Assembly: GCA_017506865.1 (NCBI GenBank)
Contig: JAFCMP010000064.1
Span: 124,001 to 188,000, forward strand
Reading direction: 5' to 3'
DNA length: 64,000 bases
From: Tribonema minus
Lineage: Eukaryota > Sar > Xanthophyceae > Tribonematales > Tribonemataceae
A program made the position numbers and the translations under genes. A model generated the notes under the pieces. It saw only the letters and a list, made by a program, of their open reading frames with translations, was not told the origin of the DNA and made no database searches. Shown piece by piece: positions 312 to 51,800 of the stretch; the stretch's first letter is position 1; each line of letters begins with the position of its first letter.

Positions 312-799
312 CAGTCCCCTTGACCTGCTTTGTAACCTTCGTAACTGCTGTGACTGCCACAGCACCCTCTCTCGCTGCTCTGTGCGCCCGCCGCATTCGA
401 CTCTGCTGCCAACCCTCAGCCCTACCCCTCAACCCTACCCCTGAACTGCAGTTGACTCCCCTGGACATGACCGTCACTTGAAACGCTTTGTAACCATCGT
501 AACTGCCTCACAGCACCCTCTGCTGCTGCTCTGCGCGGCTGCCGTATCTGACTCTGCTGCAATTGTTATGTCCTACCGCTACCCCCCAACCCTTACTCTA
601 AACTGCAGTTGACCCCCCTGGACCTGACCGTGAGCCGTGTGGATCGTCTACAGCACCAGGGAGGGACTTTGCTCGGGTGCGTGCTATACATACATACATA
701 AATGCATACGTATTACATACATACATATATACATACATTCCCTGTAAACACATGGATCGGCTACAGCACCAGGGGGGGGCTTTGCTGGGGTGCGTGCCA
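312..799 (+). repeat. Ghost copies of PFK exon 609-676
   Basis: The exon with its upstream intron end is tandemly repeated. A unit of about 160 bp (CTTTGTAACC..., CACAGCACCCTC..., CTGACTCTGCTGC, CTGCAG|TTGACNCCCCTGGAC) occurs at about 326-478 and again at 484-640, where it carries the true exon start. A remnant lies at 312-325. Downstream, 751-797 repeats the 3' half of the exon (ATGGATCGGCTACAGCACCA...) and its donor GGTGCGTGC, but has no acceptor. Confidence 0.75.
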
Positions 800-3700
800 C
801 GTTGCGCGTATGTAAGTATAACTACACACTAGCTGCGGACTTTGCGTGTTGGTAAACCGGGGCATTTTGCGTGATTGCGAGCGATACGCATTGTTGACTT
901 GGGGATATCATACGCAAGATACGGTGGCTTAGTTCAAGATGCTACACAAACAGGGCTAGGGGTATGTACACAAGCAGGGCTGGGGGTATAGGACCACTTG
1001 GTGCTGGTGCTGGCGTGTGTGCCACGCTGTGTAACCCTAACCTAACCCTAACCCTAACTCTAACCATCAATCTCGCTGGACACTGAAACACACAAGGTCC
1101 GGTGATGGTGTAAGAAACGAGGAATCTCAATCGATGTCACGAGTGCTAGGGCATGATGAACAGTTTCGCTTCTTTTGAACTGAACTTCAGGACCGCTAAA
1201 AAAATTGTGGCCTTGACTGGTGCTCCTGAGGCAGGTAGAGATAGGACAGGAAGCCAGGTTGATGTACTCGATGAAGTTTTCAACATTCTTCATCTGCTGT
1301 GAAGCAGACACTTGCAGCCCTTCACACAGATCGCAGCTTGAATGAGCAAGGCAATGTGCATACTTCTACATAAATGCATACATGATGGCCACGCGCCGTT
1401 CGTTTCTTAAAAAATCTCAGTGCACCTGATACGCTCAGCCACGCCGTTTCACTCATTCCAGTAACAATGCTGCAGCATGCGCAGAAGCGTGAGATCCAGT
1501 TCCTGACCCTGACAACGACTTCAAAGCCTGGTGACAGATTGAGACATCAAAACTTCGTGATCTCGGCCCTTCTTCAATCACGGTGTGCTGTTGAAGTTGA
1601 CATTTCTGTGCTTGCTGATGACGCCCCAAACTGCAGGACGTCCCGGGGCGGCTTTGAGCTGGACAATATCATCGCCTTCCTCCGGGCGTATCAGGTGCGT
1701 GTATGATGTCAGTGCCAGTTGTCAGGTATAGCATTGTGACGTCATCACCTGGGCCTGTGTGCTGAGCAGCATGGCCAGCCACGTGCGTAACTGCTGCAAC
1801 TGCCGGCTCAAACAGCGATGTAACGTTACAGGTGTATCTGCGCTCACAACTTTGTCCCACAGGTACCACACTCAAAAGCGTATGATGTTGGAGTCGTCAG
1901 GTAGATGCATTGCGACGGCATCAGCGGCACCTGTGTGCTGAACGCCATGGCAAGCCACGTGCGGTCTGCAACCTCTTTGCTGCTGGTGCAGATGTGTGCA
2001 CTTGACCTCGACTCCTTCCCATCCTGACTGTCTCACAATGGTTTGGGCTTTCAATTGCGTGCTGCGGTGGCTGCACACAGGCAAACAATTCTAGCCCCAA
2101 CACTAAGCCATGGTTGCTTGCTTCTGCATCAAGCTATGTACTTTCTTGGGTTCAAAAGCTGTAACCCCATAGAAATGTAACTCGATGCCATGACACACTG
2201 TTTCGTCACTGCAATCCCTGTACGACTATGAAACACAGGTGACCCAGTTGTACGTGATTGGCGGCGATGGCACGCACAGAGCGGCGCAGAAGATAGCCAT
2301 GGAGTGCAAGGCGCAGCAGCTGAACATTGCCGTGGCCGGGGTCCCCAAGGTATGTCACCATGTGACGTTCTCATACTTCAACTTCTTGAAGAATGAAACT
2401 GCTGCAGTGCTCGGCAACAAGTGCACCCACGCACTCAGAAGGAGCCATCAACTGCAATGCTGTGCACCCAAGCCAGCGTGCAACGCACAACAAATGCCAG
2501 CGTTTCCGAGTCAGCAGAGGCGGGCTGGTGGCGTTGCCGTCGCTGTCGTGGCGCGCAAGGCGCAACAGCTCCATAAATTGCCGTGAGGAAGGGGTTTGCA
2601 AAAGGCTTTTCACTACGTGAAGTCCTCCTTACGGAGGTTCTGAAGGCATGCGCAAGAAATTGATTGAACATCAAGCTCGTCTGCAGTTTGACACAGTGCC
2701 GCATTGCTCACTGAGGAGCACACCAGGGTTAGGGTCAGGGTTAGGTCACTGACATCGCCAAAAACGGCATCCCCCCCACTACATCTTCAACTCCGTGTCA
2801 ACTGACATATGTTGTTCTCGTAAGATGACGTCGTCTTCTGGCAGATGAGGCTAGGGTTAGAATTAGGGTTAGGGTGCGCGTATCTGCACAGCAGGCAGAG
2901 GAGAGTGGCGGTCTTCCTACTCTATAGCACAAACTGCTTTCACCGCAGCCTACAGCCCTGCGCAACAATTCTTGCAGGCACCGTGCTCAATTGTGCATGA
3001 TATCCGTTGTCACATGTGCGACTGGCACCCGCCCGATTACCCACCCACGCCCACTGCATTGCTCATATTCGCTGCACGTTCTTAGTGACCCACAATTTCG
3101 TCTGAAGATGTGTTCTACTTCCACTCGAAACAATAAATCAGCTCATCTACCTTTCTCTGGTTCAGACGATCGACAACGATGTGGACACGCTTGACAGGAC
3201 GTCCATTGTCACGAACAGTGACTCTCCTTTTGACCACATCAGCTGGTGTGTCTCTCTAACTGCCTGCACGCGCCTGGTTTGGACGATTGACAACAACGTT
3301 GACAGCTTGGCAGAAGCGCCTTTGCTGTGAATTGCTGTGAATTGGTGACTCTTGTCCCTAAGAAGAAAAAGATAAGCTGATGTGTCTGGGTGACTGCCCG
3401 CGTCCCCCCCTGCCACAGACGAGTGAAAATGACACCGACATGCTTGACAGGAGCTCTGTTGTCATAAATTGGTGACCCTTCTCTTGAAACATCAGCTAAC
3501 GTGTCTCTGTAACTGCCCGCGTACCCCGTAAAAATGCTTGACAGCTCCTTTGCCATGAAATGGTGACTCCTCTTTGGAAACTGATATGATGTGTCTCTGT
3601 AATTGCCCACGTCCCCCCTGCCACAGACGATCGACAATGACGTCGACATGCTTGACAGGAGCTTTGGCTTTGAGACCTCCGTGGAGACAGCACAGGCTGC

Positions 3701-6700
3701 CATCACCTCCGCTGTCACAGAGGCCTCCTGCAACCTACCCAACGGAATTGGCATAGTAAAGGTGAGCGTCGAGTCGATTAATCAGGGCACAACACTACAG
3801 TAGATACTGTGTCATCATGCACATAGCAATCTGACACCGGCATAGTGAAGGTGAGCGTTCAATTGATCTATCTGTTGAGTCGATCCATCTGGGCACAACA
3901 CGGTGGTCACAACACTTCTGTAGATTATATATACGGCCACGGTCGTTGGTGGAGGGCACTTGCGGCTAACCACTCCTTGTCACCTAGAGCTCTACGATGA
4001 TTTGATTCGTTTCCATTATTATGGCATCATGCACATGGCAGTCTGCCCAGTGCAATGGACGTTCGGAATGTGTGCGTTTGAGCAGTTGGGGCGCGCTGTG
4101 ATGGTAGTCTGCCCAATCACAATCGCACAGGGACGCCAACTCACTCGCATAAATGGTATGGCAGGTATGTAGGAGTACGGTATGTGTAGGGTACGAGCCG
4201 TGAGACCTCTGTGGCGACAGCCCAGGCTGCCATAACCCCCAATGTCACAGAGGCTAGCTGCACAATCGAACCCGCATTGTGAAGGTGTGTTCAATCGATT
4301 TTGGACACAACGCGGTAGTGTCCACAACTTGCAGATCGCTTTCGTCGCCATGGACATAGCGTTGTGCCCAATGCAAGCGGCCCTGCGTTTTGCTACATAT
4401 CTCTTTTTTCTTGATTTGCTGCTTGCAAAACTGACATATCAAGCCATCACATGACACATCATTCACATCTACTGTTGGGGCACTTGAGGGTTAGGGTAAG
4501 GGTTATACTGCGCACAGCCCTGGAGCTGTGCGTAAAAGTAACCCAATCTCCGATGAAACCCCTGCCATCACAAACAGTCATGTCATTTCCGGCTCTCAAG
4601 CCCCAACTTCAGGGTCCAGACAGAGTGATCAACATGGTTGCTCATGTTATCTGTGCGACTGCACTGTGCAGTTGGTGTGGCGCAGCAGCGGCTTCACATG
4701 TTCAGTTGTGATCACTGGTGATCTTGCCTTACAGATCGTTCGTGTTCTGCAGTGCATTCACGTTCATGTAGAGTGCGCAGCTGATGGGGCGCAGCAGCGG
4801 CTTCATTGCAGCAATTAGGTTCTCTATGGTTGTGACTTGCTGATCATTCTTGTTCTCGCTGATCATCGTTATTCAGCCGTGCATTCACATTCATTAATAG
4901 TGCGCTGATGATGGGGCGCAGCGGCGGTTTCGTCGCAGCAGTTGTGTTCACTGATCATGACTCACTGATCATTCACATTCACAATGCACTCACTTTCATG
5001 AATCCGCATTCATGAATCACGCGCAGTTAATGGGGCGCAGCAGCGGCTTCATTGCCGCACACGCCACGCTCGCGTCGGGAGACGTTGACCTCTGCCTGGT
5101 GCCTGAGATGCCTCTGGGTGAGCTCACGACCGTGTTCACACGAATACGTGCTTCAGTTCAAAGCTAGTTAAACCCCTAACCCTAACCCTAACTTTCTGCT
5201 CACTTTGGAGGAGCTAACATTTGATGGTGTGTGGGTCTGAACCGTTTTTGCAGAGTCACATTCGGGCTTGCATTAGCCCCGCAGCTCACTTCCATGTTGA
5301 AACCTTGTCCGATTTCATCTGCCCTTACTGGAAAAAAGGATGATTGTACCACTGCAGACCCTTGGGTTAGGGTTAAAGCCAGGGCATGTCCACACATGCA
5401 TCTGCCATTTCTTGTTGCTGGCACCAAAATACAGCCTTATTTGGCGCTTTTGAAAACAAATGTATCTCTGCTCAATGGTAAAGTTAATTCATTTGGGCTC
5501 CATGGGTAGGCTCGCCATCATATACACTGAAGAAATGCTTGAATTTTTTGTTATTGCTGAAGAAGAGAGTACAGTACATGTTAGGGTTGATGTGATGGTT
5601 AAAGAGCGTGGGAACCGCCATGTACAAACGGACCTACATGCGCGCATTTGATAGATAGAAATTTGATAGATAGAAGCATTACGTATACTAGTGCTGCAGC
5701 AGGCATAACGCGACTGCATATACATGTGTCCTAACGTGTTGCTGCACCTCAGGCGTGGCACATTCATACTACTCAAGCACAACACGGCGAGTGCATGCAT
5801 GCACTGTAACCAGGGTGCGCTTGACAATTTTCTTTTGGGCTTCTTCTCTAAAGGCGCTTTGACAAGCCCCTGGTTTCGACCCCCCAATAGAAATGTTGAT
5901 GCCAAAAATCCCTTGCTTTCGGCGCTATGGGCATTGTAACCCTGACCCTCATTCTTTGTACCATGATGCCAGGCACTTTGCTGAGCAGTGCTTCCAGACT
6001 GTGACCAACACCAGCCACAATTACAACAATGCGCTCTCCCCTGATCCTACTCAAAACCCCTCTTGGTGCCTCCTGACAGCGCCAACTGATCAATCTCCTG
6101 AAGTTTTAGTTATTGCTACCGCTACCCCAACCCTGATCTCAATCCCATTGAGTAGTCCAGTAAAGCATTCCAAAGCTCTATCCCGAACCCTCACCCTACT
6201 CGTAACCCCCGTAGGTGCTAACCCTTACCCTAACACCAACCCTACTCTTTACCGTAACCCCTCTTGTTGCCTACTCATAACCCCTCTCAGTGCTAACCCT
6301 AATCCTAACCCTAACCCTTATCTTAACCCTAACCCCTCTTATTGCCTGCTGAGCAGTGCTGGAGGGTCTCAATGATGTTGGTCGCTGCTGCCGCACTGTC
6401 CTAATCTCAACCCCTCTTGTGCGCCGGCCAACCAGTCCAGTATCGATTGCCACAGCTCTACCCCTGACCCCACTCTTACCCCCCCTTGGTGCCTCCTGAC
6501 AGTACCAGCTGATCGATTCGCCCTAGTATTGATCGCTGCTACCGTTACCTCGGCCCTAGTCTCAACCCCCATTGAGTATCTGCCGACCAGCGCAGTATCG
6601 ATTGCTACAAACCCTCACCCTACACTCACCATTTTTTGGTGCTAAACCTAGCCCTAACCCTACTCTTAACCCCTCTTACTGCGTGCTGAGCAGTGCTGGA

Positions 6701-9700
6701 GGGTCCCAAGGGGTGTCTGCCCCACCTGATGCAGCGCGTTCACGACAAGGGGTATGCCGTGGTGGTGGTGGCAGAGGGGGCGGGGGAGAACGTTCTGGGG
6801 TCCAGCGCAGAGGTGGACCTTTCCGGGAACAAGAAGCTACCAAAAGTGAGTGGGATGTTGTGTCTCTTGAATAAAGTTCAATTTGATGGTCAGGTGGATC
6901 ATTCCGGGAACAAGAAGCTACCAGAAGTGAGTCAGATTTCATCTTGGGAATTGAATGCACCTGACGGTCAGGTGAACCTTTCCGGGAACAAGAAGCTACC
7001 GAAAGTGAGTCGGATTTTGTCTAAGGAATGGAATGAAGCACTGTGCAAGTCACCGGCAGGTCATGGCGGCAGTGATAACAGTGGGTAAGGTTGGCAAAGC
7101 ACTTAGAGGGAGGCGTGCAGCACCGATTGGAGCATTACATTTGTAGGGCCCATTATTCTATTGTTGATCCCGCAGCGGCACCAACAGCAGCAAGACCCCA
7201 TGCCTGCCAGGGCCAGTGGGTGGCCCCAGGGCAATGCGGAGTGTATCGTGCCATCGTGGCTGCCCCTTCGGTGGATGATACACGCCAAGAGCTTGCATGT
7301 AGAATGGCGGCAGGCTGACGTGCCGGACGGGGCACGGAACTCGCCTATGTACAGGCACTGAGCTTTGCCTTCCTCCCAGGGCTCTACACGGCTGATGCGG
7401 GGGCTCAGCCTGGGGTGAGCACGCCCTCACTCGTTGTGTGCGTCAAGCCTGCTCTGGGTCACATCACAAATCACGTGGGCGATCCCACACCCACGGCGCA
7501 CATGCCCGCTGCAGGGCTCTGTGATCACGAAGCACAGAATGCTGCTGGCCATTGCGTCCACAAGGTGAATGGCGCGGGGTTTGAACAGGCCCTGGAGGTG
7601 TTTGCATGCGTCATGCAAAGGCCTGACGCACGCAACGAGTGCAGGTGCACACACCCGGGTTCTGTGAAGCCTCGCCTATAATGCTGCTGGCCATGGCCCC
7701 CGAGAGGCGCACCAATGCGGCTTTGACCACGTAGTCTGTGATGGGATCGAGAGCAGGCTTGATGCACACAGCGAGTTCAGGCGCGCTCGCCCTTAGGGTT
7801 AGGGTTAGGGTTAGGATTAGGGTTAGGGTTAGGGCTACTAACCCTAAGGCTGCGCCTTGACCACCTCTGTGCTCCCATCAGCCATGTGCAACCCTAGCAG
7901 GACGCCAAAGCGCTGTACGATATATTCTGGCGAGCTTCATGCCCCATTGCAGCACGCCAGCCTGCCGCTTCTGTACATGCAGGCTCTTTGCCTGTACTGT
8001 CCACCGTAGGGGCAGCCACACTGGCACGTTATACTCCACACTGCTTTAATGCCACACAGGCAGGGGTGCTGCTGCTGTTCGGTGCCGCTGCAGGATCTGA
8101 ATAATGGGCTACATTGATTCTCCAATCAGCGCTACACCCTTCCTCCAAAAACTGTTCACCAACTTCAGCTTCACATCGCCTTATACCAACTTCACCGCCG
8201 CCACAGCCTGCCGGTGATTTCAACCAAGGGGTCTAGAAAAGAAAAGTGGAGGTCGCACCTCCGCAGAGACCGTGGTCGACTCATCCCCACAAAAAATACT
8301 TTCAGCACATGGGTTAGGGTTAGGGTTAGGGTTAGGGTTAGGGTTAGGGTTATACGTGGTTTTCCACAGCGCTCTTGTAGATGCAACATCAACACATACT
8401 GGAGCGTGCTTGCGAAGCCTTCAAACGCACCCGGTCGCACTTCATGCGGTGGCGCATAAATTGAGCACGGCTCATTGTGTTTGCTGCTGCTGCACTAGCA
8501 AGCCCCCCCCGCCCCCCCACCCCAAGGTGCCTCAAAGGAGTGCTCTTGTCAATAAGAATTCGTACCTCGGCACAGACAAAAGATTATTATAGCGCCCCTT
8601 GCTATTGCCATGCAGGGCCGTGTATGAGAAATTGCCGGGTCGCGCCCCTGAACACACGCGTAATGCTGCAAAAAATGTTTTTTGTAGTGCTACATGATTG
8701 AAAGAAGTGTTGCTTTACATGATGACATCACGCTTTGCAAGGCTAAGTCAATCACGCGTTTGTACGGGATTTGGGAGAGTTCCAATTCCACTTTTCTTTT
8801 CGTAGAACCCCCTTGCTTCAACAATGCATTGCACCAAGCTCAACATCTTATGCTGCTTGCTGCCTCTATGTACGTGGGTTGTGAGCATGTATTTGTTATC
8901 CTGACTGCAACAAAGGAAACTCCCGTTTCCTCCAAAACGTCCGGCACGTTTTGTGTCAGGCCCCATGCCACAACCTGCCTGTGACTTCAACAGTGCTTTG
9001 CACCAAGCTCAACATCTCATGCTGCTCGTGGTGCCTCTACTTACAAATAGGTGGCGGAGTTTATGCAGCACTCCATAGAGGACTTCTTCCACCGCCACAA
9101 TCTCCCAGTCACGTGCAAGAGCATCGACCCCTCCTACACCATCAGGTGATGCTAATCTTCTTTCGTTTTTGCTTTTGTTCCGTAGTCTACCATTTCTGCA
9201 TGGGGAGCACAATAGCACACGCATGCGCGGTGTGGTCAGTTACGCCATCAGTTACACCGTCAGTTACAAATGTCGATTCTCATGGTCAGTCACATGTAAA
9301 CACACATGGACTAATGCACGCATGGTGCTGGCCCCAGCATCATGCCGGCTGCCCCTCAGTGCCTCAAATACGTACTTGCATACCTCTTGTGCCAGCGAGC
9401 GCAGCTTTTACCTTTCCCAAACGCCACGCCCTCTTCGCCTGCGCACGCTCCTCTCTTCTCAGTTCAAACTCCACAAACAATTACATACATAGATACATAC
9501 GTACATACATATACGAAGTATACTTGGAAGTGTATTTATGTATGCAGCTCCGCGCCCGCAAATGCGTTGGGCCCGAGCGCCGTATGCACACGCAGCAGCA
9601 GTGCTCATGCGGCAGCGCGCACACACCCACCCTACTTCAAGACTGTTCAACGTTGAGCTGACATGTTGGAATATGGACCTCACTCATATCTACTGGTGGT

Positions 9701-12700
9701 TGACTCAGCATCAGCACTCATCTGTCGTAGGTATGGTGCGTGATGACGCACTTGCAGCGCATGCGCTGCAAACGGCAGTTACATCACAGTTACATGTCTC
9801 TCGATTCTCCATTCAACTTCAACCTCAATTTCCATGCGCCTGCCGGCCCAGCAGAGCAGTGCTCATGCAGCAGCGTGACACCCAACTTCAAAACTGCCCA
9901 ACTTGAGCTGATCAATGAATTCAACTTCAACTTCCGGCCTGCAGATCTGTACCGGCCAGTACGTCGGACCAGATACTGTGCATGCAGCTGGCGCAGAATG
10001 CCGTTACATTTCTCTTCATTTCTCAGCTGAACTGCAACTTCACTTTCACCCTGCCTGCCGGCCTGCCGGTATGTACCGGCCAATGCGTCGGACCAGATAC
10101 TGTGCATGCAGCTGGCGCAGAATGCCGTTACATTTCGCTTCATTTCTCAGCTGAACTGCAACTTCACTTTCACCCTGCCTGCCGGCCTGCTGGTATGTAC
10201 CGGCCAATGCGTCGGACCAGATACTGTGCATGCAGCTGGCGCAGAATGCCGTTACATTTCGCTTCATTTTCTCAGCTCAACTGCAACTTCAACTTCAATT
10301 TCACCCGTTGCCTGCCGGCCTGCAGGTCTGTACCGGCCAACGCGTCGGACCAGATTCTGTGCATGCAGCTCGCGCAGAACGCAGTGCACGCCGCCATGGC
10401 CGGCTACACAGCTTTCACCGTTGGACTCGTCAACAACAAGGTGATTGGTATGCTTTTGACGGCAGGATTGGTTGCAACACGATGCTTGAAAGTCACCATG
10501 GCGTATCGTACATGACAAGAGTCACCATGGTGTATCGTATGCTCGTCAACAACAAGGTGGGTCTGTATGCTCTCGACGGCAGCATTGGTGGTAATGTGAT
10601 GCTTTAAAGTCACAACGGTGTAACATATATGACAAGAGGTGCTGTGGAGCGACTTGGCCGGCTACGCGGCCCTTACTGTTGGGCTCGTCAACAACAAGGT
10701 GGGTTGATATTAGTGTTCTGAGCCAAAGTCGGCTAAGCCGATCGGCTTCGGCTACAACAGAAAGCCGAAAAGCCGGCCGATCGCTCAGTCGGCTTTTCGG
10801 CTTTGTCTTAAATGTGCCTATTAGGCCTAACCAAGTAGTTGTGAGCCTTTCTCAGCCATACCACGCCTCTGTGTGCCTGCAAGCAATGCTGCAGATGGTA
10901 GCTACTTCGAAGCTAACTGTTGCGGCACCTACGTAGCTTGACTTAACGTTGGGTTGCCGTGCCAGCACGCTTGAGCTTGAGAAGCAAAGCATGACGAGTG
11001 GAATGGTTTCGGATATGGCGCAGCAGAGAGTATACATTCTCTTCTCTGCGGTGGTGGGCAGTCACTCTGTTGTAGTTGGTGCGTGGTTGAGCAGCACGGT
11101 TGAGCATCAACACACTTTGAACAGCTCTCGCCAAACACAGGAATGTGCTTAAGGATCTGAGCAGTCTGCTTGGTTTGCCAGTTACAGTACTGTTCCAACC
11201 AGTATTGAGACAAGAGAGCTGAGTGATCATCAGCAAAAAAGACCCTGACAGAAGCTGGTTGTGGCGAAAAGCCGGCCAAATAGCCGAAAAGCCGATGACG
11301 GCCGATTAAGCCGAAAAAGCCGGCCGATCCATATCCGGAAAGCCGAAAAGCCAGCCGATGGCATCGGCTCAGAACACTAGTTGATATGCTTTCAATGGCA
11401 GCATCAGTTGCAACACGCTGCTTAAAAGTCGCCATGGTGTATCCTGTATGATGAGAGGAGCTGTTAAACGGCTGGGGTGATGTTGCCGCTCTCACAAAAG
11501 ACTGCTGCTGAGCAATGCATCATGAAGTGTGCAGAGTGCGCGGCCATGGCCTGACCCTAACCCTAGCTTTGCTCTAACCCTAATCTTAACCCTAGCCCAC
11601 ACGGCATTGCGCTCGCGAGCAATACAGTAAGGTCAATAAGCAGAAGGTTGAGTACTTCTATGATGCAGACCAAGGTATACCTCGATATACACAACATAGA
11701 CACCCTAACTGTAACTCTAAGTGCCTTCCTTGGCAGCGACTTTCTGGTTAAAACTTTGCGCGTGATCAGCAACGCGAAGCCACACCCAGCATTGTTACTG
11801 TGTTAAGTTGCTTGACGCATGGTGAATGGAACAAACCAGCAGCACAGCCACTTTCCTGCGTGTGCCAAACCTTCAGCAGGGCTGTCAATCAATGCACATT
11901 TGTCAATTCATGCCCCTCCCCCCATCGCCCCCCCCCCCCCCCCCCCCCGCCTCCTTTCCTTGTACCACACCATGGACTGCCTTCATTTATGCAGCAAAAC
12001 TGGCTCTTGCTTTTCTGATGCGGTGGTCGTTGTGGTTTGCCCCGCAGGCGGTGTTGATCCCCTAAGACTCTCGCGACGCGTTAGGGCAAGGAGCATATAA
12101 CCCCTCCCCTATTGATTGTGAATTTACTGACCAAACCCTTTGCCCTATTGCTGACGGTCAGGTGATGATAATGGTTGTCCTGCAGGCTGCGGTCACCCCA
12201 AACTCCCTTGTTCACGACCAGCACAAGGGCTACTCTGTTTACTTCCGCTTGGGGGGCGGATGTATGGCCCTGATGTATGAAATATGCAAGGTTTTATGCA
12301 GCTTAAGTGCGTGTGCAGTGCATGTTGCTTGCAGCACATCTGTTGGCTCAGCCGCAAGCAAGCATCACCTATGCTCTGCCAGGTCAGCTACAGACGCGCC
12401 TCAAAGGAGGACTTCAACTTGAAGTTGTCAGCCGCCCTTATGCCTGACCAGGCGTACCTAATCCTAGCCCGAATGGTACTGGCTCAGACCCTTGAAACTG
12501 ACCCCTACCCTCTGTCGATGACGCTCAACTGTTGCCCTGCAGGCAGTGCTCATCCCCATGTCCTTTAACCTAACTTTAACCCTATGTCAATGACGATCAA
12601 CTGTTGCCCTGCCCTTGAGCTAACCCGAACGATATGCAGGTAATGCTCATCCCCACGTCCCTTAACCTAATCCTAACCCCAAGTCGATGATGCTCAACTG

Positions 12701-12870: not shown

Positions 12871-14132
12871 GTGCTTGGGAGCGGCTGGGGAGGGGGGGGA
12901 GGGGGGGAGAGGGGGAGGGCAAGCGTGGCGCATGGAGGCGCAGTTCAAGAGTTGACTCTCCTGGCGCATTATAGCACTCAACGACCATGAAGAGAAAATA
13001 GTAGCAGGCGAGAAGGACACTCAAGCCTGATCACAACAGTTGCAGCCGCCGTATTTTGAGGTGTTGTTCAAATGAACCATGTAGGAGAAGGGGGCACTGT
13101 CCCGCACGCAACTCCGCCTTTTTGCTGCGTATTTGGCGGCGGTCGTGTCCCGCTTTCACGTCATTGTCGGTATCGCAGGAGGGCGCTTCGGGGCATGCTT
13201 CCTGGTTTCTGTTCATATGTTGTAGTCATGCCGCCAGGTTCAGTTGAAAGGGGTTTATCATAGCAGTTCTGCTTATAATCACAGTATGTTTGAAGTTCAT
13301 GCACATGGAACCGGCTTTGTTACTTCAGTACTCTACATTGCCATTGTGCTGCCCTGCTCTGGCTGTTAGTGCTACGCTGCATATCGAAGTACTTCAAAGT
13401 GCTTGATGTGTTTCTGTTGAAGGGGTGGTGTACTCCGCAAGTGTCATGACTCATTGACCCATCTATGTGGCATGCATCAATCATAACATCTTCTCACATG
13501 TCATGCGCACAATGCACAACTGCTTTGATGCAAGATCAAGGCAACAGACTTGAAGAAAGCGTCACTGCGTGCAGAGACTTCGGTATACTTCTACACGTAT
13601 GTTTGTACTTCCAGAGAGAGAGATGAAAGTGGGTGACGTTTTCCGCCCTCCTTAAGGACCCCTGGTTTGCATGGCACCAATGCCACCATGTTTGTCTAGT
13701 GCCACTTTTGTGAAACTGATACTGACATGGCACAGCAGCAAGCAGTCCCCTCAATGCAGCACAGCAGCAACAGGCTCAGAGGCATGAAACAGGCACACAA
13801 GGCACATGCACACAGACGGAACACTCAATTGCACCACTGAAGTTGAAAATCACTGTATTCTTGTCTCGAGAGATGTGATGGCATGTGTGTTGTACCAAAG
13901 CGCACCAACAGCTCGAGGCTGCAGGTGTATCAAAGTCAGCGTAGGGATTGTACAAACTCACAGCACATCAACATGAAAAACTGCTCCCTGCAATCCAAAG
14001 GTGCCATGGCAGACACACATGTAGCTGGCTATCACTCGAAAAGCGCCATAGCGAACACACACCCAAAATTGCTGCTGACCGCACCTCTAAAGATGGCTAG
14101 CAGCCACAAATCTGTACAAAGCCAAAAGCAGC
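12871..14132. other. Intergenic region after PFK
   Basis: A G-rich stretch (12886-12920) follows the PFK stop. The rest shows no gene. It contains the left arm of the inverted repeat at 13582-13781. Confidence 0.6.
13582..13781 (+). repeat. Inverted repeat, left arm, flanking the 14133-14924 gene
   Basis: From AGAGAGAGATGAAAGTGGGT to CAACAGGCTCAGAG this arm is a near-perfect reverse complement of 15512-15690, about 175 bp. An extra ~21 bp near 13592-13612 separates the outermost GGTATACTTC, which is also shared. The pair encloses about 1.7 kb. No target-site duplication is evident outside the arms. Confidence 0.85.
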
Positions 14133-15511: not shown

Positions 15512-15690
15512 CTCTGAGCCTGTTGCTGCTGTGCTGCATTGAGGGGACTGCTTGCTGCTGTGCCATGTCAGTATCAGTTTCACAAAAGTGGCACTAGACA
15601 AACATGGTGGCATTGGTGCCATGCAAACCAGGGGTCCTTAAGGAGGGCGGAAAACGTCACCCACTTTCATCTCTCTCTCTGAAGTATACC
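15512..15690 (-). repeat. Inverted repeat, right arm
   Basis: Reverse complement of 13582-13781, running from CTCTGAGCCTGTTGCTGCTG to CTCTCTCTCTGAAGTATACC. The near-identity of the arms compared with the diverged flanks implies a recent insertion or gene conversion. Confidence 0.85.
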
Positions 15691-16545: not shown

Positions 16546-16640
16546 AATCGCCACCCCTTTCTGAACAAAGGAACAAGACGTCATGGCCCGATGTCCGACC
16601 GATCTAGCCGAGCCGCTGCGTTCTAACCCTACCCTTAGGG

Positions 16641-39800: not shown

Positions 39801-41416
39801 TGCCGGCTATCGCTGGCGCAGCACGTATGCAGTGTAATGCATCAAGCATGCCACCGTCAATGAGCATGTAACTGCCATACGCTTCAATCATCATAATTTG
39901 GCGGCTATCGCTGGCGCAGCAGCTATGCAGTGTAATATAGCAAGCATCAAAACGGTAATGAGCATGTAACTGCCATATGTTCCAACAGTACTGCTCTGCC
40001 AGCTACCGCTGGCGCAGCACGTATGCAATGCAGTAAAAGGAATTGCAGCTGGCGGCTATCGCTGACGCAGCAGGTGTGCAGTGGAATCGGGCCTGATGGC
40101 GGTGGCCCATTAAAGGCCGTAGCGGCCATGTTGACGACGCCATTACGCACAGGTGCTGTAAAATGCCCTTGGAGGGCACAAGTGCCTCATGTTGTGATGT
40201 GTATGATGCGGGCTTGAGAGAAGTCCAGGGTCAGAGGTCAAATGAGTTTTGAGTGTACAGCTGACTGGTGAGGGGTAAGTTGAAGTTGGACGCGGTGCGA
40301 GTGGCCATGCAACCAGATCACGAAGTGCTTGAGGGGCACAGGTGGCCCGTAAATGAAAACGAATCAAAAGATCGTAGAGCTCTAGGTGACAAGGGATGGT
40401 TAGCCGCAAGTGCCGTCCACCAATAATGTTATGCTGTCTATGATGCAGCTCAAGGGACGTTTAGGGTCACAGGTGGCGAGCCACAGCCATCACCGTGCAG
40501 GGATCGGCACCAATGATGGCTTGATACAATCTCGCAAGCATTTGCTGATTTGAAAACATTGACTGTAATCAGCTTAGCAAATGTAAACGAGAAAGCAATC
40601 AGTTGCGGTGAGACACATTGAAATCTGCTGAGTGCATCATTGCCTGCTGCTTTATGGCGCAGGTGTTTTACGGTGTGCATGCTTTGAAGACTTTGCAGTT
40701 TGAATGAGCATCCCTCGTGTTAACGCCATCTGCACCTGCCATAGGGATGCCCATATGAGTGAGGCAGGCCCCACTGGCATGGAACTATGGACGTGCAGAC
40801 ATTGCCCTTGCAGTTGAAGTGTTGAAGTGATGTTGCACTGACGCAGCAGCAAGGCAACCTGCGCATCCTGCTAAATGTGCTCCAATCATCGTTGCATACC
40901 AAATCTCAGTGCTGAGCGAAGCACATACGGGTTCCTTATACTTCAATTATCAAATAGGTCCACTGTACCATGGCTCTATAATTACAAGTAAGGCTTGAAC
41001 TTGAAAGTGCGCAGAAGCAGTTGCATGGGCTTTGTGTCTAACCATGGCAAGTCCTGGTCGGTTGAAGAATGGAATCACATGGTGGAGTGCAAGATAACAG
41101 GCTGCACCAGGGGCACAGGGAGCCTTTGTGCCGTCAATCATCAAGAACAACAGCGGGGTGTGCCAGGACAGCACTGGTACACAGCAGTTCACCCCTGGGA
41201 TTATCTGCTTACTCGTTGCCAACGGACATTTACAAGCAGGCTTTTCATATTGTGTGCTGATACAGTGGATTCATTCTGTTCTCCTGTGCAGGGCGAACGG
41301 TGCTATTGAAGCGGCGCGCTGTGAACCCCACAGACCCCAAACAAGTCTACAAGTTCTACATGTTCCTCTGGGGCCTCTTCTACACCAGCTACCTCTGCCT
41401 GCCGTTTGTGCGATGA
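33849..41416 (+). CDS. Plastid homogentisate prenyltransferase (UbiA family)
   Basis: Joins a prenyl or phytyl chain to homogentisate in the plastid membrane, for plastoquinone or tocopherol. Nine exons join in phase to 442 residues: 33849-33884, 34006-34122, 34353-34540, 35034-35222, 36265-36468, 38277-38547, 39060-39134, 39603-39726 and 41292-41416. The start MRSTALLWAAAL is a signal peptide; its cleavage lies before SVRA-FQL, so the bipartite plastid presequence is itself split by introns. Family motifs: YDFSRPHTLIGS, GLNQITDVEID (first Asp-rich motif), NKPELPIAAGRLSM, GGMYSLPPIRLKRFPLLAA, LKDVPDFKGD (second Asp-rich motif), HNIRSFTVRMG, and the C-terminus FYMFLWGLFYTSYLCLPFVR. Several membrane helices are evident. 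Phytyl- versus solanesyl-transferase cannot be decided by eye. Ghost exons surround exons 5 to 8. Confidence 0.92.
35866..36205 (+). repeat. Four ghosts before prenyltransferase exon 36265-36468
   Basis: Copies of CTACAG|GGTGAATAAGCC and the NKPELPI coding start at 35866-35905, 35965-36010, 36055-36105 and 36157-36205, at intervals of about 90-105 bp; the intact exon starts at 36265. Each copy includes the preceding AACCGCGCTCTACCCATACC-like intron text and fades after 40-50 coding bases. The third copy has lost its AG. Confidence 0.9.
36515..36911 (+). repeat. Four ghosts of the 3' end of exon 36265-36468
   Basis: The exon end coding for LGGMYSLPPIRLKR plus GTGAGTCAC and the intron start (CTGAAGTTGATGAA) recurs at 36515-36573, 36621-36689 and 36737-36802, and in decayed form at 36838-36911. 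The second and third copies still read GGMYSLPPIRLKR without error. Confidence 0.9.
38110..38170 (+). repeat. Ghost of the acceptor of exon 38277-38547
   Basis: GATTGAAGCGCGCTGACC, a C-run and GGTTTCC repeat the true acceptor region at 38228-38290 (GATCGAAGCACGCTGACC, C-run, GGCAG|GTTCC). A further ghost, of the 3' end of the same exon, is at 38634-38691 (CTGCGCTGCTGAAGG ... GGACTTCAAGGGTGACGCTC). Confidence 0.7.
39203..39402 (+). repeat. Three ghosts of exon 39060-39134
   Basis: GCAGCGAGCAACCTCATGAT and the donor GCGGTGAGTACAC recur at 39203-39237, 39265-39311 and 39366-39402. The second copy also includes GAGCGCGTCTTTGCAGCAGC, so it is longer. Confidence 0.85.
39803..40082 (+). repeat. Four ghosts of the end of exon 39603-39726
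   Basis: GGCTATCGCTGGCGCAGCA followed by the donor (C/G)GTATGCAGTG recurs at about 39803-39835, 39899-39932, 40000-40032 and 40047-40082, with the intron word AATGAGCATGTAACTGCCAT between copies. Confidence 0.85.
40354..40422 (-). repeat. Dispersed repeat A, copy 2
   Basis: Reverse complement of 3943-4018: GAATCAAAAGATCGTAGAGC, then AGGTGACAAGGGATGGTTAG and CGTCCACCAATAA. It lies in the last intron of the prenyltransferase gene. Confidence 0.7.
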
Positions 41417-42856: not shown

Positions 42857-45800
42857 ATGGCTGCCATGCTGGAGCAAACCTCGGGATCCTTCGACAACAC
42901 CGCTGGCGGCGATGGTTCGGGGAAGGACTGCTCTGTCACTGCGCCAGCTCGCAGCGTGCTGCCAGCAGCGGGGGACACCACCGATTGCTACCCATTGGCC
43001 GCCCCTCCCACTACAGCTGAGCCATCGCTAGAGGAGCCTCCACCGCCAGCGCACGAGGCACCCGCGGCGAGCAGCACGGCTGCCTCAAAGGAACACGAGG
43101 TGGCTCACACCAGCAATACGCCGCAAGCGGTGTCCACCGGAGCCTTGCTGCACAGCAATCACAAGGGGGGGCCGGATGTGAAGCGGCACTGCCCTCCACA
43201 GTGCATATGCCAAGGGGGCAAGACTCTCTACAATAGCAATACTCAGGGGTACACCAAGGTACGTTGCCTGCACCTGCACTGCCCTGCGGATCGTTTCGCA
43301 TCTTCACTGTGTTGTAACCAATGAGGGTATCAAGACATTGGGCTTATGGTCATTCATATCGCATTCGTAGTCGGGGTTGATGTGAAGGGCGCCACTTTCA
43401 CGAGACCTGTCAACTCACCACTTAAGATTGGCTGAGGGAGCGCGGTCGATGCAAAATACCAACACAAATACGCACATCCACTGAGCATAGCGCTCAGCAC
43501 ACAAGCTGTGCCACCCTGCCTCATGGCAGCAAAAACAAGGAAAGTTGGCGCTATACTTCAAGTCACGACGTGCCAATCGCGTGCCATGCTGCCGCTGTGC
43601 CGTCAGGATGATGATGCAGCGATTGTACTGTCTGGCCGCTGCTACTTCAGCGCACGCGGGGCTGGTGGTCTCAGTGACATAGGCAGCGGTGTGCGCACTC
43701 AGACGCTGTGCGATGGCCACCATGTCCAGCAAAGACGCAGCACCATAATCGTCCTGCTGTGCTGTGCGCACGTGTTGGCAATTACGGATCGCGTAACAGC
43801 TTGTCAGAACTGGTCAGAGGCATGCGGGCCCGTGTGAGATAGTCGCCACAACCGCGCATGTCCTGATGTCAGGTCGATGTAAATTGCCTGTGTCTTGCAC
43901 CAGGCTTTTGCGGCCTGCATCTGGATGACATAACCGCCACTTGCAGTTGCTGCACTTGAAGTTGCTGCCCATAAACCAAGCAGCGAAGACTTGACTCAAG
44001 CCTGGATAGTGTGATTGCGACTGAGGCTTAAAGTACCTCACTTCAAATGCCACTCGTCTCTTGACCTAAGCAACGAAACATAGTATCATGCTGCATGCAC
44101 TCTGCAGACATGCGCAGCATATGGTTACGCGCTGAGTATATGCCTGCTCACAGCACAAATAAAAGTGGGTACAGGCACACATTCATCATTTCTCGCAGCG
44201 TGCTCTCGCTGCCGCATGTGTCAGGCGTTTAAGAGCTGCATCTCTGCGTTCGTGCTGCAGCATGCAAGCAGATCACCAGTGGCACCGCTCATAGCTTGGC
44301 ATACATACCCTTGCTGCTTCTACTCCATGCGCGGTGCCTCCTAGCTTGGCATACACACCCCTGCTGCTTCTGGTCCATGCTGCCGCCCCCACAGATCGTA
44401 TGGGAGGACCTGAAGAATTTATTCTACATGACGGAAGGAGCCATGTGCCGCATCTACAGCGCAGAGTACAGGGGCGCTAAGGTGGTGGTCAAGCTGCCGC
44501 GGGATGACTGCGAGGACCCTGAGATTGCGGAGCACGATCTGGAGGTGGAGCTGGAGGTGCTGTGGGGGCTTGATCACAGGTACGTATGTATGGCCACATA
44601 TGTGGGTAGGCAGGTAGGTAGGACCCCGAGATTGCGGAGCACGATCTGGAGGTGGAGCTGGAGGTGCTGTGGGGGCTTGATCACAGGTATGCATGTATGT
44701 ATGTATGGTTGCATGCATGGGTAGGTAGGTAGGTAGGACCCTGAGATTGCGGAGCACGATTTGGAGGTGGAGCTGGAGTGCCACATGCATGGGTAGGTAG
44801 GTATATCTTCAGTGTTTTTCACGGTGTCTACTTTTTTAGACCGTGTCTGGCAGTGCTGTTGTAGTGTGAGTAGGGGATTGATTACAGTCAGGCATGTATG
44901 CACGTCTATGGGTAGGTGTACATACCCATGTGTCTGGCGTCAGTGCATTGTCCGCGGAGCATAATCTGGTGGCCTGGCACAATCATATATGTTGTGTGAT
45001 TAGGTAGGTAAGTATGAATGATGGGTAGGTAGGCACATCTATGGTGGGAACGGGATGCGCTTAAGCACATCCTGTGTGCACTGGCAGCCATTCGCTAAGT
45101 GTACTGTGTCTATACCGCACATACTCTATGTGAGTGATGATCGCCTGCTGAGCATCATCACGCAGTGACCCGGAATTCGTGTTGGTAGGTACAAAGGTAC
45201 ATTAGTTGAAGTTGAGCAATAAGATGTGGGATTTACGCCTGTCATCCAATTGCATCACTATAGTTGGGTATACTACTATGGAAACGAGCTGTACTAAAGC
45301 TCGTACTATATGTCAGCGAATGCTGCCGCGTGAATTATGTTGAAGTTGAAGTTGCAAGGTTCAGTGTGATGTGGATGTCAGCAGCAGAGACAGAGAAAGT
45401 GGCTTCAGGCGTAGTGAGATGCATAGAGTTAGAGCGACGCGCCAGCGAGTTGAACTTCAAGTACATGAGCCTTAACTTGAAGTGCAGTTCCACAACGCGC
45501 TCAACAAACAAAAGCATTCCCACTTCAAAGCCAGTGCTGCTCACCAACCAGCATCCAATCAGATGCATGTTTTGTGATAAGCAGCACATGACTTATCGAC
45601 AACGCACCGCATCTGTGGAGTCATGATGTCTGTAGTATCGCACACACTCAGGCCGTCATACTCAGCTTCTCCTGTTGCGCATTCTCAAGATTCTTCCGTC
45701 ATCAATGGCTGTGCGGTCCCTCGGCAGGCATGTCTCAATCGCACAAATACCAGTGCCTTGTAGTACATCGCGTGTATATGTATATGTAGGTAGGTAGGTA

Positions 45801-48800
45801 TGAAATGCCGTCAGCTTGATCCCATATGTAGTCACCTCTTCACTTTGCCAGGCGCATGTCTCAGTCGCACCTCATACCTGTTTTTCGTCATGCATGTACG
45901 TATATACGCATGTACCTATTTCAGGAAGTATGTACTTAATGCTACACCGCCATCAGCACGGTCCCATCGTGACCCCCCCCCCCCCCCTCTGTTTACTTCT
46001 TTTCAGACACATCATCAAGCTCCTAGGGGCGGGCCTGCGCGAAATTCCCCCCTACCGCTTTTTGGTGCTGGAGTATCTTGAGATGGGGACACTGGCGGAC
46101 AGGCTCAATGCGGGGGCGCCACCCGGGCAGGAGGAAACGGGATACAACAAAATTATCAAGGGCACCAAAAAGTGAGTCACACTTGAAGTAGCAACAAATG
46201 TTGACGTAGTTGTTGCTCAATGAGTCACACTCGAAGTAGCAACAAATGTTGAAGTAGTTGTTTCTCAATGCGGGGGCGCCGCCGGGGCAGGAGGAAACGG
46301 GATACAATGAATTACTAGGGCACAAAAAAGTGAGTCACACTTAAAGTAGCAACAGCTGCTGTGCGTGCAGCCACAGTTGAGTTTGTCAGCGAGGTGCAAC
46401 TGGGGTTAACTCCACCGGGGCAGGAGGAGACAGGATACAACAAAATTATCAAGGGCGCAAAGAAGTGCGTCACACTTGAATCAACATCACTCCCTGACAA
46501 CTCCACAGGCAATGCAGGAGGAGACGCGATACAACAAATTGTTGAGGGCACTCAACAGTGAGGCACACTTGAAGTAGCATCGTTGTTGACAACTTCACAG
46601 GCTCAAGCAGGGGCCCCGCGGGGGCAGAGGAAACGGGGGGGGGGGAGTACAACAAAATAACCAAAGAAGTGGGTCACACTAGAATGACTCATACTTGATG
46701 TGGAAGTGAGTCATTACCTGGTGTAGCATATGTTTGTTGGCAGCATCATTTACGCATTTGGAGACACATTCGGTGCACTACAATCATCCGGGCACCAAAT
46801 GGTGAGTCACACTTGAAATGGAAGTAGCAACAACTGTTGTACGCGGCAGCAGCAACCATAGTTGAGTGGTCAGGTTTTTGCTTGATGGCGCAAAAAGGTA
46901 GCGACGATCGAATCGGCATGGTGAATCACTTGTTGCACTTTGTTCCACGCTCTCCTGCTCGCAGGTGCCAACGCTTCCACCAGATGTCCATCACTCAAGC
47001 GAGCACCAGCACTTGAACTTCAACTTCAACTATTCAATAGCATGATTTCAATCGCTCATATGTTGAGTCACATGTTGCGTTGAGTCACATGTTGCACTTC
47101 ACCCTGCTCTTGCAGGTACATACCAACGCTTTCACCTGGTGACCATGTTGGAGCGAGCACTAGAACTTGATCTTTGACTTCAACTGCTCAACGCCACGTC
47201 ACATGTTGCACTTCGCCGTGCTCTCCTGCCCGCAGGTACCAACGCTTTCACCAGGTGACCATGCTGGAGCGCGCTATGGAGCTGGCGGAGGCGCTGGAGT
47301 ACTTGCATCACAGCGTGTGCGGCGGCGCGGCGTTTGTCGTTCATCGCGATTTGAAGCCTGATAACGTGAGCGAACGCTTGTGGCCAAGTGATGCAGCAGC
47401 GGCGACCACGGTTTCTGGTGGAAGGCACTGGCGGCTCATCACACTTTGTCACGTAGAGCTCTATGATGTTTTTGAATCGTATCCGCGAGCAAACGCTCAG
47501 CTGTAAAACAGCACACAAAAAGTGTAGTAGTAGGCGTTTCTCGTCCATCGCGATTTGGAGCCTGTGAGCAAAAACGCCCAGCTGCACAATGTTCACCTGA
47601 CCCAGTAGACTACTATCATTGTGTGCTGTTTGCTTGCTGATGCGGTTGCAGGTACTGTTGGTGCTGACCTTAACCCTGACCATCAGCTGCATGCAAAGCG
47701 TGCGTGTGGCTGCCGGAGTTTCACGTTATTAGGGTTAGGGCTAGAGTTAGGGTTGGGTTAAAGGTAGGGGTAGGGTTAAAGCTGCACGCAGCACGCAGCC
47801 TCTCACTACTCACACCTGGCTGCGTGAGCCCACCTTGTCCTTCGTGTCGTGATGACATGCTGTTGGTTGTCGTTGCAGTTAATTGGGTGCAAAGCGTGCG
47901 CGTTGTGTAACCCCTGCCTGTCAGGGTCTTGCAGCACCGCCATCTACATGCATATCGCATGTACTGACCTGGCATATTGCATGTACAGCAGATGTACAGC
48001 AGCTGTACACTGCTGTACCCATTTGGCTGCGAGCTTTGTCTCAATGTGCGGCGCCTGACACACACGTGTTTCCATAGCAGCTGTAGACTCTACTCTTCTC
48101 ATGCGGTTTGCATGACGCGTTGACTCATTGACTCATCATGAGACTCATGTGTCATTGTGCATCGCATGCGGCCAACTGCAGATTGGCTTTAAGGCGGATG
48201 GCACCTTGAAGCTGTTTGACTTTGGGCTGGCGCGTTGTGTGAAACGGAGAGCCCGCGTGAACGCACGATACGACATGACCGGCGAAACGGTGAGAACTTC
48301 AACATGATAGTACTACTCGTGAGGCAATCTGCATTTCAACCCATAGACTATATGTACTCAAGTATGGACTTCAACTACAGTATTTGAAGGAACTTCAACT
48401 TAGTGTTCATCAGAGGCATTTGGCGTGATATGACATGACTGGCGAAACGGTGAGAGCCTCAACATGGCATTGAAGTAGTACTAGTCATGAGGCATATGCG
48501 CTTCACAGCTTTTTTTACTCGCGTGTGACATTGAACCATGGTATCCAAAGAACCTTCAACTTAGTGAAGCGGAGGGCCTGCGTGAATGTGCGATATGACA
48601 TGACCGGCGAAACGGTAAGAACTTCAATATTGCATTGAAGTACTAGTGTGAGGCTCTTGAACTCAATTTATCAACTTCAACTTTGATATCAAAAGGAACT
48701 GGAGCCTAGAATTTATCAGAGGCATTTTCAAGCATCTGGCAGTGTGCAGTATAGCTTGACAGGCGAAACGGCAAGATCTACTGCAGCATAGCGTGTCGGA

Positions 48801-51800
48801 GTCATTTGTTGTTGGCATCAGCGGGTGTTGTGGGACTGGCAAGACAACAGCACATTCACGCACACTTGGTAATGGAGTAATACAGCTGTGCGTCTTGGGA
48901 GGCATTGATACGATCTGCAGTGCTCAAACGCAACATGGCACGGAACTCCAACTCAGAACATCACATCGAATCCTTCTTGTGAGGTTTCATAACAGTTTCA
49001 TGTTTTGAAGTCATTCATTGGAAACTGGCAGTTTGCAGGTGAGAGGGCCGGGGGCGCGCACAAATGCGCCTTCAAGCTGAAGTAGACGTCTGACACCCTG
49101 ACGAGGTACTGGCAGTGGTGTAGACTCGCTCCTGCACCATCGGTACACTTAAAATTGCTGATGAACCAGCCCTTTGGATAAGCTCAATGTACCACTGCAC
49201 TCCCCCTTTCCACTCACCCCCTATTTGTGCATGCCCGCGGAGGTCGTGATCTCGCACACTCTACAAAGCTCTTTTACTGACATGTACAAATGCCTGCCGC
49301 ATCATCACTGACCTTCTCTCTTCCACTCACCCCCTTTCTGCGCAGGGTTAGTACAACTGCTCTTTTACCGACATGTACATATGCCTGCCGCGGTCACCAC
49401 TGACCTTATCCCTTCCACTCGCTCCCTGTTTCCACAGGGTTCCATGCGCTACATGGCCCCGGAAGTCGTGGAATCCCTGCCCTACAACGAGAAAGTAGAT
49501 GTGTACGCCTTCGGCCTCCTTCTCTGGGAGATGCTGCAGTACCGGCGCGTCTTCGAGGGCATGAGCGTAGGCGATTTCTATCAGCGCGTCGTTAACGGGG
49601 GCATACGGCCACCGCTCGACAGTAGCTGGCCGCCCGCGCTGCGCAAGCTCATAGATCTGTGCTGGCACGCGGATGTCGACAAGCGCCCCGACTTCCACTA
49701 CATAGCCGCGCAGCTGAAGGACATCTACCGCCAGGTCAGTACAGTAATTCTAGACAATAGTAGCGCTCGATAGGTAGTACAGTAGCGCTAGATGGTACGC
49801 ATTAGGGTCAGGTAGGGTTAGCAGCTGGCCTCCCGCGCTGCGCAAGCTCATAGACCTGTGCTGGCATGCGCACGTCGACAAGCGCCCATACTTCCTCTAC
49901 ATTGCCGCACAGCTCAAGGACATCTACCGTCAGGTCAGTACAGTAGCGCTATAGAAAGCGCTCGATAGTACAGTAGCGCTAGATAGTGAGGGTTAGGGTT
50001 AGGGTTAGTGTTGGGGTTAGGGTTAGGGTCAGCAGAGCAGTGCTCAACAAACACAAGCGCCCCGACTTCCACTACACTGCCGCGCAGCTTAAGGACATCT
50101 ACTGCCAGGTCAGTGTGTACCCTACTCAAGTGCTCGGTAGTAGCGCTAGATAGTGAGGGGTAGGGTTAGGGTTAGGTTAGGGTTAGGGTCAGTAGAGCAG
50201 TGCTCAATATACACAGCGCGCCGACTTCTACTAACCCTGACCCTAACCCTAACCTTCGCCGCGAATTTACCGGCACGTCAGTACAGTAGTTCTAGACATT
50301 AAGTAGGGCTCAATAGTAGCGCTAGATAGTAAGGGTTATAATTAGTGTTAGGTTTCTGTTAGAGTAAGGGTTAGGGTAGCTGGGGGGTCAGTTGTCAGTG
50401 CTAGTGATGATGCAGCTGTGCTCAGCAGATGTACGCTATCGGGCAGCAGCAATCAGCAAGAAGGTGGGCTGCAATAACGTAGCATTACTGCCATCGCGTC
50501 ATCCGTACTACCCCACGTGCCGTTTTGTATAGTTCTAATGTATACCTACGTACCCTCTGAATGCTTTTCGTACCCTTGCATCGCACAACAGGAGAAGGCA
50601 GGCAGTGTCAAGATATGTAGCCATGAGCGCCATCAGCCTTATTAACAAGCCACATGTCATTATTCCTGTATGGGTTGACGCACATGCCTACATGCCCTCA
50701 CAACTGCCCTACGCACCTACCCTCTCAACACATATAACAGGTGGGCGGTGACATGATAGCCATGAGCGCCATCAGCCTCACTCAAACTCTACTTGAATCA
50801 TGTGTCTTTTTCCAGCCCACAATGCATACCTTACACACCCCACGAAATGCTCTAAAATGCGTACCCACATACCTTCCCTCTTATGACACAACAGGAGAAG
50901 GCAGGCGGCGACAAGATAGCCATGAGCGCCATCAGCCTAATGGCGGAAGGACGCGGACGCTTGATATCCTCGCCGCAGCACATTGCACGCAGCGCCACTT
51001 CCACCGTCATCATACACAAGCACTCCACCCCCCAGCGAAACTCCAGCAAGGCAGTGGCGGGGGGGGGGAAGGCGCGATTGGGGGCAGCCACTGGGGGGGT
51101 GGGGGGTGGTGCTGCTGACAAGGGAAAGGGAGGGGGGTTCATGCGGCGGCTGGGGAGGCGGTTGCTGGGGCGGAGGAGTGCGGGGGGGACGGGGGGGGGT
51201 ATTGCGTCGCTGAAGGATGTTCCGCTGGAGAGGGGAGCGGGATTGCATGGGTGAGAGAACGTGCTTAATGACCGCTGTTTAGAGGTGGTGTAGGGGTGAT
51301 GCAGTTGCAGTCATATGCTGCCATTGAGAAGGGGTAGGTGCTGAAGGATGTTCCGCTGGAGAGGGGTGCGGGGTTACATGGGTGAGATAATGTGCCTGAT
51401 AAGCGGTTGTGTGGGTGAGAAAACGTGCTTAGCAAGTGTTTTTCGTGAGAGAACGTGCTTTGAAATAAGCGCTTACATGATTGAAAGCACGCGGATGATG
51501 AGTGCGTTTTGGAGGTCGTGTAGGGCTGATGCAGTTGCAGTTGGATGCTGCCGTTGGATAGGAGCAGGGGCAGAGTCCTTGAGATGTCTATCAAAGAAGA
51601 ACAGTTGGGATGTGCTGCTGTAGATGTGACAGGGATGCCAGGATGAAGGAGCGAGAGGACGTGCTTGATAAGGTCTACTTAGACTGAAACGGTAGTTGCA
51701 GTCATTGTCTGCAAATCTAATCATCATACATTGAAGTATAGGGCTAATGATATCCGTTTGAGGCAGTATAGGGGTGCTATATTCCTAAGTACGACTGCAA

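Follow-up and report, generated by a model that had tools for sequence, protein, structure and literature searches.

Why should the introns of a gene hold partial copies of the edges of its own exons, and are such copies functional, dead or artefactual? The question is raised by a stretch of 64,000 nucleotides of the Tribonema minus genome (158 Mb, 554 contigs), here called the window (contig JAFCMP010000064.1, positions 124,001 to 188,000, forward strand; G000:C64:124001-188000), which has a GC content of 56%. Partial, drifted exon-edge copies, referred to below as ghosts, are confirmed as real in the introns of several genes.

Gene models in the window

Spliced models of three plus-strand genes, encoding a PFK, a UbiA prenyltransferase and a protein kinase, were built by eye and their frames were checked by script. 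All three models have open frames and GT/AG introns. The PFK gene (609..12870; Pfam PFK, E 4.9e-38) has nine exons in the window (609-676, 1637-1694, 2239-2349, 3627-3761, 5027-5117, 6694-6845, 9051-9145, 10326-10440 and 12712-12870). An additional PFK match was found at G000:C64:121920-122060, and the 5' part of the gene probably lies upstream of the window. The prenyltransferase gene (34006..41416; Pfam UbiA, E 8.2e-26) was modelled with eight exons (34006-34122, 34353-34540, 35034-35222, 36265-36468, 38277-38547, 39060-39134, 39603-39726 and 41292-41416), and the kinase gene (42857..52250; Pfam PK_Tyr_Ser-Thr, E 1.8e-41) with nine (42857-43258, 44395-44579, 46007-46171, 47236-47365, 48182-48289, 49438-49734, 50416-50463, 50895-51250 and 52133-52250). 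These 26 exons provided 48 junctions for testing, 25 acceptors and 23 donors.

Exon-edge copies in the introns

A blastn self-scan of the window (at least 40 bits, offset 40-2000) revealed 88 direct pairs, covering 9,759 bp, and 5 inverted pairs; the same scan gave 0 pairs in each of three dinucleotide block shuffles. Probes of 80 bp placed on each of the 48 junctions were compared with the surrounding ±1 kb, at a threshold of 25 (the 99% point of 384 shuffled-flank scores). An upstream match was found for 13/25 acceptors and a downstream match for 1/25 (score 26, marginal at this threshold), while donors showed downstream matches in 14/23 cases and upstream matches in 0/23. Ghosts of acceptors thus lie upstream and ghosts of donors downstream, in ratios of 13:1 and 14:0. 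The comparison of intronic matches with shuffled controls, proposed in the preliminary description of this DNA, refutes chance: the shuffles were empty and 27 of the 48 junction probes scored above the shuffled-flank threshold.

An iterative search yielded 66 copies, 46 of which cross the junction by at least 5 bp on both sides, in agreement with the more than forty first reported. The highest number at one junction is six, five of them spanning (donor 46171, kinase). Copies were found at 17/26 exons (PFK 7/9, prenyltransferase 4/8, kinase 6/9); the initial statement that nearly every exon is accompanied by them is too strong. It was also claimed that copies span the junction and take intron flank with them, and this was borne out: flanks are copied at ~86% identity, and the unit is a DNA-level segment and not a processed exon copied without its intron.

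After removal of low-complexity pairs, the copies in the three genes were grouped into 22 junction-spanning families (at 21 junctions), 4 families ending within 20 bp of a junction (near), 1 classed as exon and 5 confined to introns. All lie on the plus strand. In the PFK gene, a ghost upstream of the acceptor of exon 609 (319..631; 75% over 163 bp, offset 158) is accompanied by one downstream of donor 676 (640..797; 91% over 45 bp). Five pairs lie upstream of acceptor 3627 (3163..3666) and four upstream of acceptor 5027 (4665..5059), and a partial copy of exon 3627-3761 downstream of its donor (3671..4262; 84% over 62 bp) is the family classed as exon. Exon 6694-6845 has a ghost upstream of its acceptor (6338..6709; 91% over 35 bp) and ghosts with a period of ~80 downstream of its donor (6811..7035). 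Acceptor 10326 is preceded by a 124-bp tandem array at 92% (9931..10385), donor 10440 is followed by five pairs (10397..11464), and three pairs precede acceptor 12712 (12489..12732; 85% over 75 bp). Two PFK families were classed as near, an intron copy beginning 7 bp past donor 1694 (1701..1963) and a duplication ending 11 bp short of acceptor 9051 (8816..9039). Intron-only duplications of this gene comprise families 6033-6609 and 6195-6350 (together 6033..6609), one at 9592..9911 and a weak one of 25 bp at 10760..11362.

The prenyltransferase gene harbours six pairs with a period of ~100 upstream of acceptor 36265 (35787..36312) and tandem ghosts with a period of 105-116 downstream of donor 36468 (36399..36949). 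Further ghosts follow donor 38547 (38505..38720; 75% over 80 bp), donor 39134 (39094..39434; 3 pairs) and donor 39726 (39699..40087; 98-bp tandem ghosts), and a weak duplication is confined to an intron (37522..37740; 70% over 96 bp). In the kinase gene, ghosts were found downstream of donors 44579 (44513..44803; 107-bp tandem ghosts), 46171 (46099..46843; 10 pairs), 48289 (48239..48654; 2 pairs), 49734 (49621..50331; 6 pairs, with TTAGGG tracts between them) and 51250 (51209..51574; counted as two families), and upstream of acceptors 47236 (46922..47274; 3 pairs) and 50895 (50584..50941; 3 pairs). Two kinase families are of the near class: the ghost downstream of donor 47365 (47329..47564; 91% over 32 bp), whose alignment ends 5 bp before the junction, and the ghost upstream of acceptor 49438 (49268..49441; 84% over 83 bp), whose alignment reaches 4 bp into the exon.

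Tandem arrays run head to tail, for example with periods of 78, 98, 105, 107 and 124. Measured at 33 junctions, of which 21 belong to the window, the nearest copy lies at a median offset of 127 bp, and 112/192 clusters have nearest offsets of 80-200 bp. Copies include a median of 46 bp of exon. The median exon share of the units is 0.39, below the expectation for uniform placement (KS p 0.007, 31/33 junctions, offsets above 260 excluded), and a branch-point requirement may be partly behind this low share. No ghost family matched another junction in the window self-comparison (E 1e-3). A genome search with a kinase segment, in which 40 of 1,523 candidates were scored, returned among these 40 the segment itself and two short dispersed stretches; a second allele with a different ghost number was not among these 40.

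Other repeats in the window

Interstitial telomere-like tracts (TTAGGG, at least two units) are located at 1046-1057, 2863-2874, 5174-5191, 7793-7810, 7817-7834, 8314-8349, 36126-36137, 47729-47740, 49993-50004, 50017-50028, 50177-50188 and 50241-50252. Every one of the 12 falls within an intron of the PFK, prenyltransferase or kinase gene, the introns of these genes accounting for 40% of the window, and none occurred in 20 shuffles; tracts of TTTAGGG or TTTTAGGG were absent from the sequence examined. In Chlamydomonadales, AACCCT has been reported as the telomeric motif (PMC7617258). A link between TTAGGG tracts and duplication was considered and rejected: a strong correlation in the window (8 bins; rho 0.85, p 0.008) disappeared when 28 loci elsewhere were examined (rho 0.11, p 0.57). 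Nor were the tracts nearer to duplications than random intron positions (8/15 within 100 bp versus 0.48).

An inverted repeat of 176 bp (13606-13781 / 15512-15686; 99.4% identical, ~1.7 kb apart) surrounds a minus-strand ORF (14133-14939), and together these look like a young mobile element. A dispersed repeat of ~105 bp has one intronic copy in each window gene (47377-47491, 3946-4017 and 40352-40423) and at least 40 other copies in the genome, with 79-90% identity. A PFK intron contains a diverged inverted repeat of ~300 bp (7103-7397 / 7876-8148; 71%). A minus-strand coding frame has its 3' end, with what seems to be the stop codon, repeated in the sequence that follows (16410-16536 / 16596-16721; 79%); this pair is a CDS-edge ghost without a splice site.

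Copies in other genes

Direct pairs were found in 13 of 14 other 10-kb stretches (0-33 each), with one inverted pair across all 14; three of these stretches had been placed on PFK-like matches and two on the contig of the window. In CCT genes, partial repeats are already visible in protein-level exon matches, and arrays stand at junctions in the DNA of three of them. Multi-locus scans omitted loci L001-L005, which lie within or overlap other sequence analysed. In L025, L031 and L032, introns next to a missing exon were skipped. In L024 and L025, two loci chosen because of their ghosts, corrected models revealed 8 families at junctions, 4 near them and 1 confined to introns. A blind sample, made up of genes selected before their DNA was seen (L026-L033; 40 introns, 22.5 kb), gave 10 junction, 3 near and 4 intron-only families. 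Among them, the HSP70 gene L033 (C190) has 6 junction families in 6 introns and no intron-only family, and its paralogues L026 and L027 (C522) have no families in 10 introns with 20 junctions. Local direct duplication is widespread in the genome but patchy between genes.

Two further HSP70 loci (G000:C179:221650-223642 and G000:C90:846742-848762) show closely similar match patterns and may be a recent duplicate or a leftover allele. On the contig of the window, L015:22-1556 (C64) is a 136-bp tandem array with strong donor-like sites recurring on the minus strand.

A probable origin in small tandem duplication and selection

We consider the ghosts to be, with a probability of about 0.6, dead by-products of small tandem duplications (units of ~80-200 bp) that arise at many places in the genome and are filtered by selection. 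The duplications would arise when DNA breaks undergo error-prone joining accompanied by fill-in synthesis. Those within an exon would be lost because they alter the protein and wholly intronic ones would be neutral, while those crossing a junction could survive, the copy still joined to the exon preserving the frame and the other being left as a ghost. Repetition of such events would create arrays and longer introns. In a donor-side duplication the upstream copy alone is continuous with the exon, and in an acceptor-side duplication the downstream copy alone, so that selection by itself explains the geometry. Tandem duplication is further supported by the copies being direct, local and in many cases head to tail, as seen in the excess of direct over inverted pairs and in the tandem arrays.

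Two fresh joints in L028, one of the genes picked without sight of its DNA, resemble end joining. At the first, a 97.7% copy is separated by an 8-bp filler that opens with the reverse complement of 6 exon bases straddling the unit end, although a single 6-base inverted match could be due to chance; at the second, the pair overlaps by 6 bp. Judging from these few joints, the filler is of the kind that snap-back synthesis could leave. Copy gaps at other joints were 0 (L006), -2 (L010) and +3 (L007); the joints fresh enough to be read are too few to establish microhomology or short filler. After Cas9 cleavage in Chlamydomonas, chiefly where ku80 was mutated, deletions at microhomologies and templated insertions have been reported and ascribed to Pol theta (PMC8495919), and in human and mouse cells fill-in by Pol alpha-primase at breaks has been shown to generate small tandem duplications (PMC8355091).

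Frequency of copies at splice junctions

Counter to a purely passive origin, the share of junction families exceeds the simulated share both in the window genes and in the genes picked blind, units contain less exon than would be expected if they were placed uniformly, and genes differ unevenly. In the simulations duplications were placed uniformly, events disrupting an exon were lost, copies decayed neutrally beside exons under constraint, and families were detected as in the real data. With present-day intron lengths, a first null put junction families at 13-20% (24 simulations for each setting); it was judged unfair and replaced, because the ghosts themselves have lengthened present-day introns. 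A fairer null, in which introns started at 0.47-0.65 of their length today, gave 26-39% for the window genes. Observed were 22/31 (71%), in a window that was selected for its ghosts. This share was reached by 0/160 simulations (highest single value 55%) and the number of 22 junction families by 1/160. In the genes picked blind to their DNA, 10/17 families (59%) were of the junction type versus 38-43% expected, a share reached by 2/60 and 3/60 simulations (5/120); with near families added, 13/17 were found versus 51-54% expected (2/60 and 0/60). These comparisons of observed with simulated values may be biased by how families were merged and by the choice of ages and unit sizes. The junction excess is strong in the window and modest to weak outside it, in the same direction.

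An alternative is that splice junctions are targeted, DNA near the exon-intron boundaries of some genes being broken or re-copied preferentially, so that units of ~100 bp astride junctions are duplicated more often than other intron DNA. We hold this to be unlikely on balance, yet a serious contender. Besides the simulated shares, the centred units with their median of 46 bp of exon and the HSP70 gene L033, with six junction families and no intron-only one, speak for it. Of 12 pairs of at least 94% identity over at least 40 bp, ten (in L020, L024, L025, L028 and the window) read as exon edges, which also speaks for it, and two (L015) do not; L020 was read by eye and L024 and L025 had been selected for ghosts. 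Nine further pairs were read by eye, and of these two resemble exon edges, two possibly do and five do not. Against targeting stand also the choice of the window for its ghosts and the small excess elsewhere, as well as the two HSP70 paralogues without families. In 11 stretches not chosen for genes, splice-site-like motifs occur in both copies in 16/41 clusters versus 9/41 in a reversed control (score 8), a mild excess. Furthermore, the intron interiors of the window genes match too: 46% of 520 interior probes did so, versus 27/48 junction probes, many interior matches being the ghosts themselves. Probes in four stretches outside the three genes matched in 0/80, 6% of 178, 22% of 60 and 6% of 65 cases. 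In a stricter count of alignments of at least 36 bits across the junction, made with the first PFK exon not yet included, 8/24 acceptors and 11/22 donors were spanned; the corresponding values were 25% for points in intron interiors (n = 4,280) and 19% for points in exons (n = 758).

Co-transcriptional R-loops and boundary-positioned nucleosomes can be named as speculative routes to targeting; the literature searched gave nothing decisive on such nucleosomes as a cause. It is possible, though less likely than not, that in this lineage a mutational process preferentially duplicates ~100-bp segments astride the junctions of a subset of genes, in which case introns would grow outward from the exon edges and carry a datable fossil series of duplicated splice sites. 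A mild junction preference of the duplication process itself is possible. The preliminary description had proposed a recurrent, genome-wide tendency to duplicate splice junctions. Copies do occur in other genes, but a duplication machinery acting on junctions is unsupported as stated, since the geometry follows from random tandem duplication plus selection.

Decay of the copies

Mismatches between ghosts and their exons amount to 44/564, 35/563 and 100/557 at codon positions 1, 2 and 3 (7.8%, 6.2% and 18.0%; counts worked back from rounded identities). In the intron flanks the mismatch is ~13-14% (summed from a rounded table), twice the value of positions 1-2. The ghost alignments were cut by score, which makes absolute ages unreliable. 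If a dead ghost is paired with a constrained exon, positions 1-2 should differ by half the neutral pair divergence and position 3 by nearly all of it, and this pattern was observed. By this measure the ghosts behave as dead, unconstrained DNA, and would be the scars of duplications that lengthened introns without harm to the genes.

The same pattern disfavours the idea that ghosts are decoy or alternative exons or spare splice sites retained by selection, which we regard as very unlikely. GT or AG is kept in many copies, and in donor-side copies the identity at intron positions +1 to +3 is 0.90-0.93, as retention would predict; that identity is, however, about the level of the adjoining exon positions (0.77-1.00), the copies are partial, and their differences from the exon fit an unconstrained ghost. 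Re-insertion of pieces of unspliced transcript through an RNA template would account for copies that hold intron and exon, like pre-mRNA, but it is more improbable still, given that the copies lie on the adjoining side of their own junction (13:1, 14:0) and many are head to tail. Chance matches or an assembly artefact can practically be dismissed on the empty shuffles and on divergence structured by codon position, an assembly artefact being unlikely because copy-exon differences track codon position.

Relation to known systems

The ghosts have parallels in several known phenomena. In tandem exon duplication, including mutually exclusive exons, whole, functional exons are repeated side by side. 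The ghosts likewise place exon sequence beside itself, but whole-exon copies with both splice sites and a preserved frame were not found; the copies are partial, extend over a single junction with, at the median, 46 bp of exon, and are drifting. Introner elements are dispersed families that have multiplied intron content in algae. Multiplied intron content is shared with the window, whereas similar intron sequence dispersed at many loci was not seen in the window self-comparison, in which ghosts of one junction did not match another.

The small tandem duplications formed at breaks (Schimmel et al. 2021, PMC8355091) are also direct, local and small, and the two clearest fresh joints found here can be read as end joining; those duplications come from induced breaks and from cell lines, whereas a fossil series at exon edges, with up to six copies per junction, was found here. 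Intron gain by tandem genomic duplication, described for potato RdRp (PMC4974935), shares the interaction of tandem duplication with splicing. In potato the duplication gives rise to an intron that did not exist before, whereas the introns here were already present and acquired copies of their own edges. The arrangement belonging to intron gain, with an upstream exon end before the acceptor or a downstream exon start after the donor, was not observed; each ghost repeats the edge of the exon next to it, together with the splice site of that edge. Among titles and the beginnings of abstracts (subscription papers and bioRxiv being outside the scope), no report was recognised that describes drifting partial exon-edge copies at such density. 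The class of mechanism is already known; the density, the patchiness and the possible junction preference are new.

Implications

Repeated small tandem duplications provide a concrete route to intron lengthening, in which the duplications that persist often leave behind an additional splice site that is dead. Software predicting genes in such genomes would tend to call ghosts exons. Since a ghost can be dated by comparison with the exon it copies, rates of duplication, decay and loss become measurable within one genome and junction targeting can be tested by counting.
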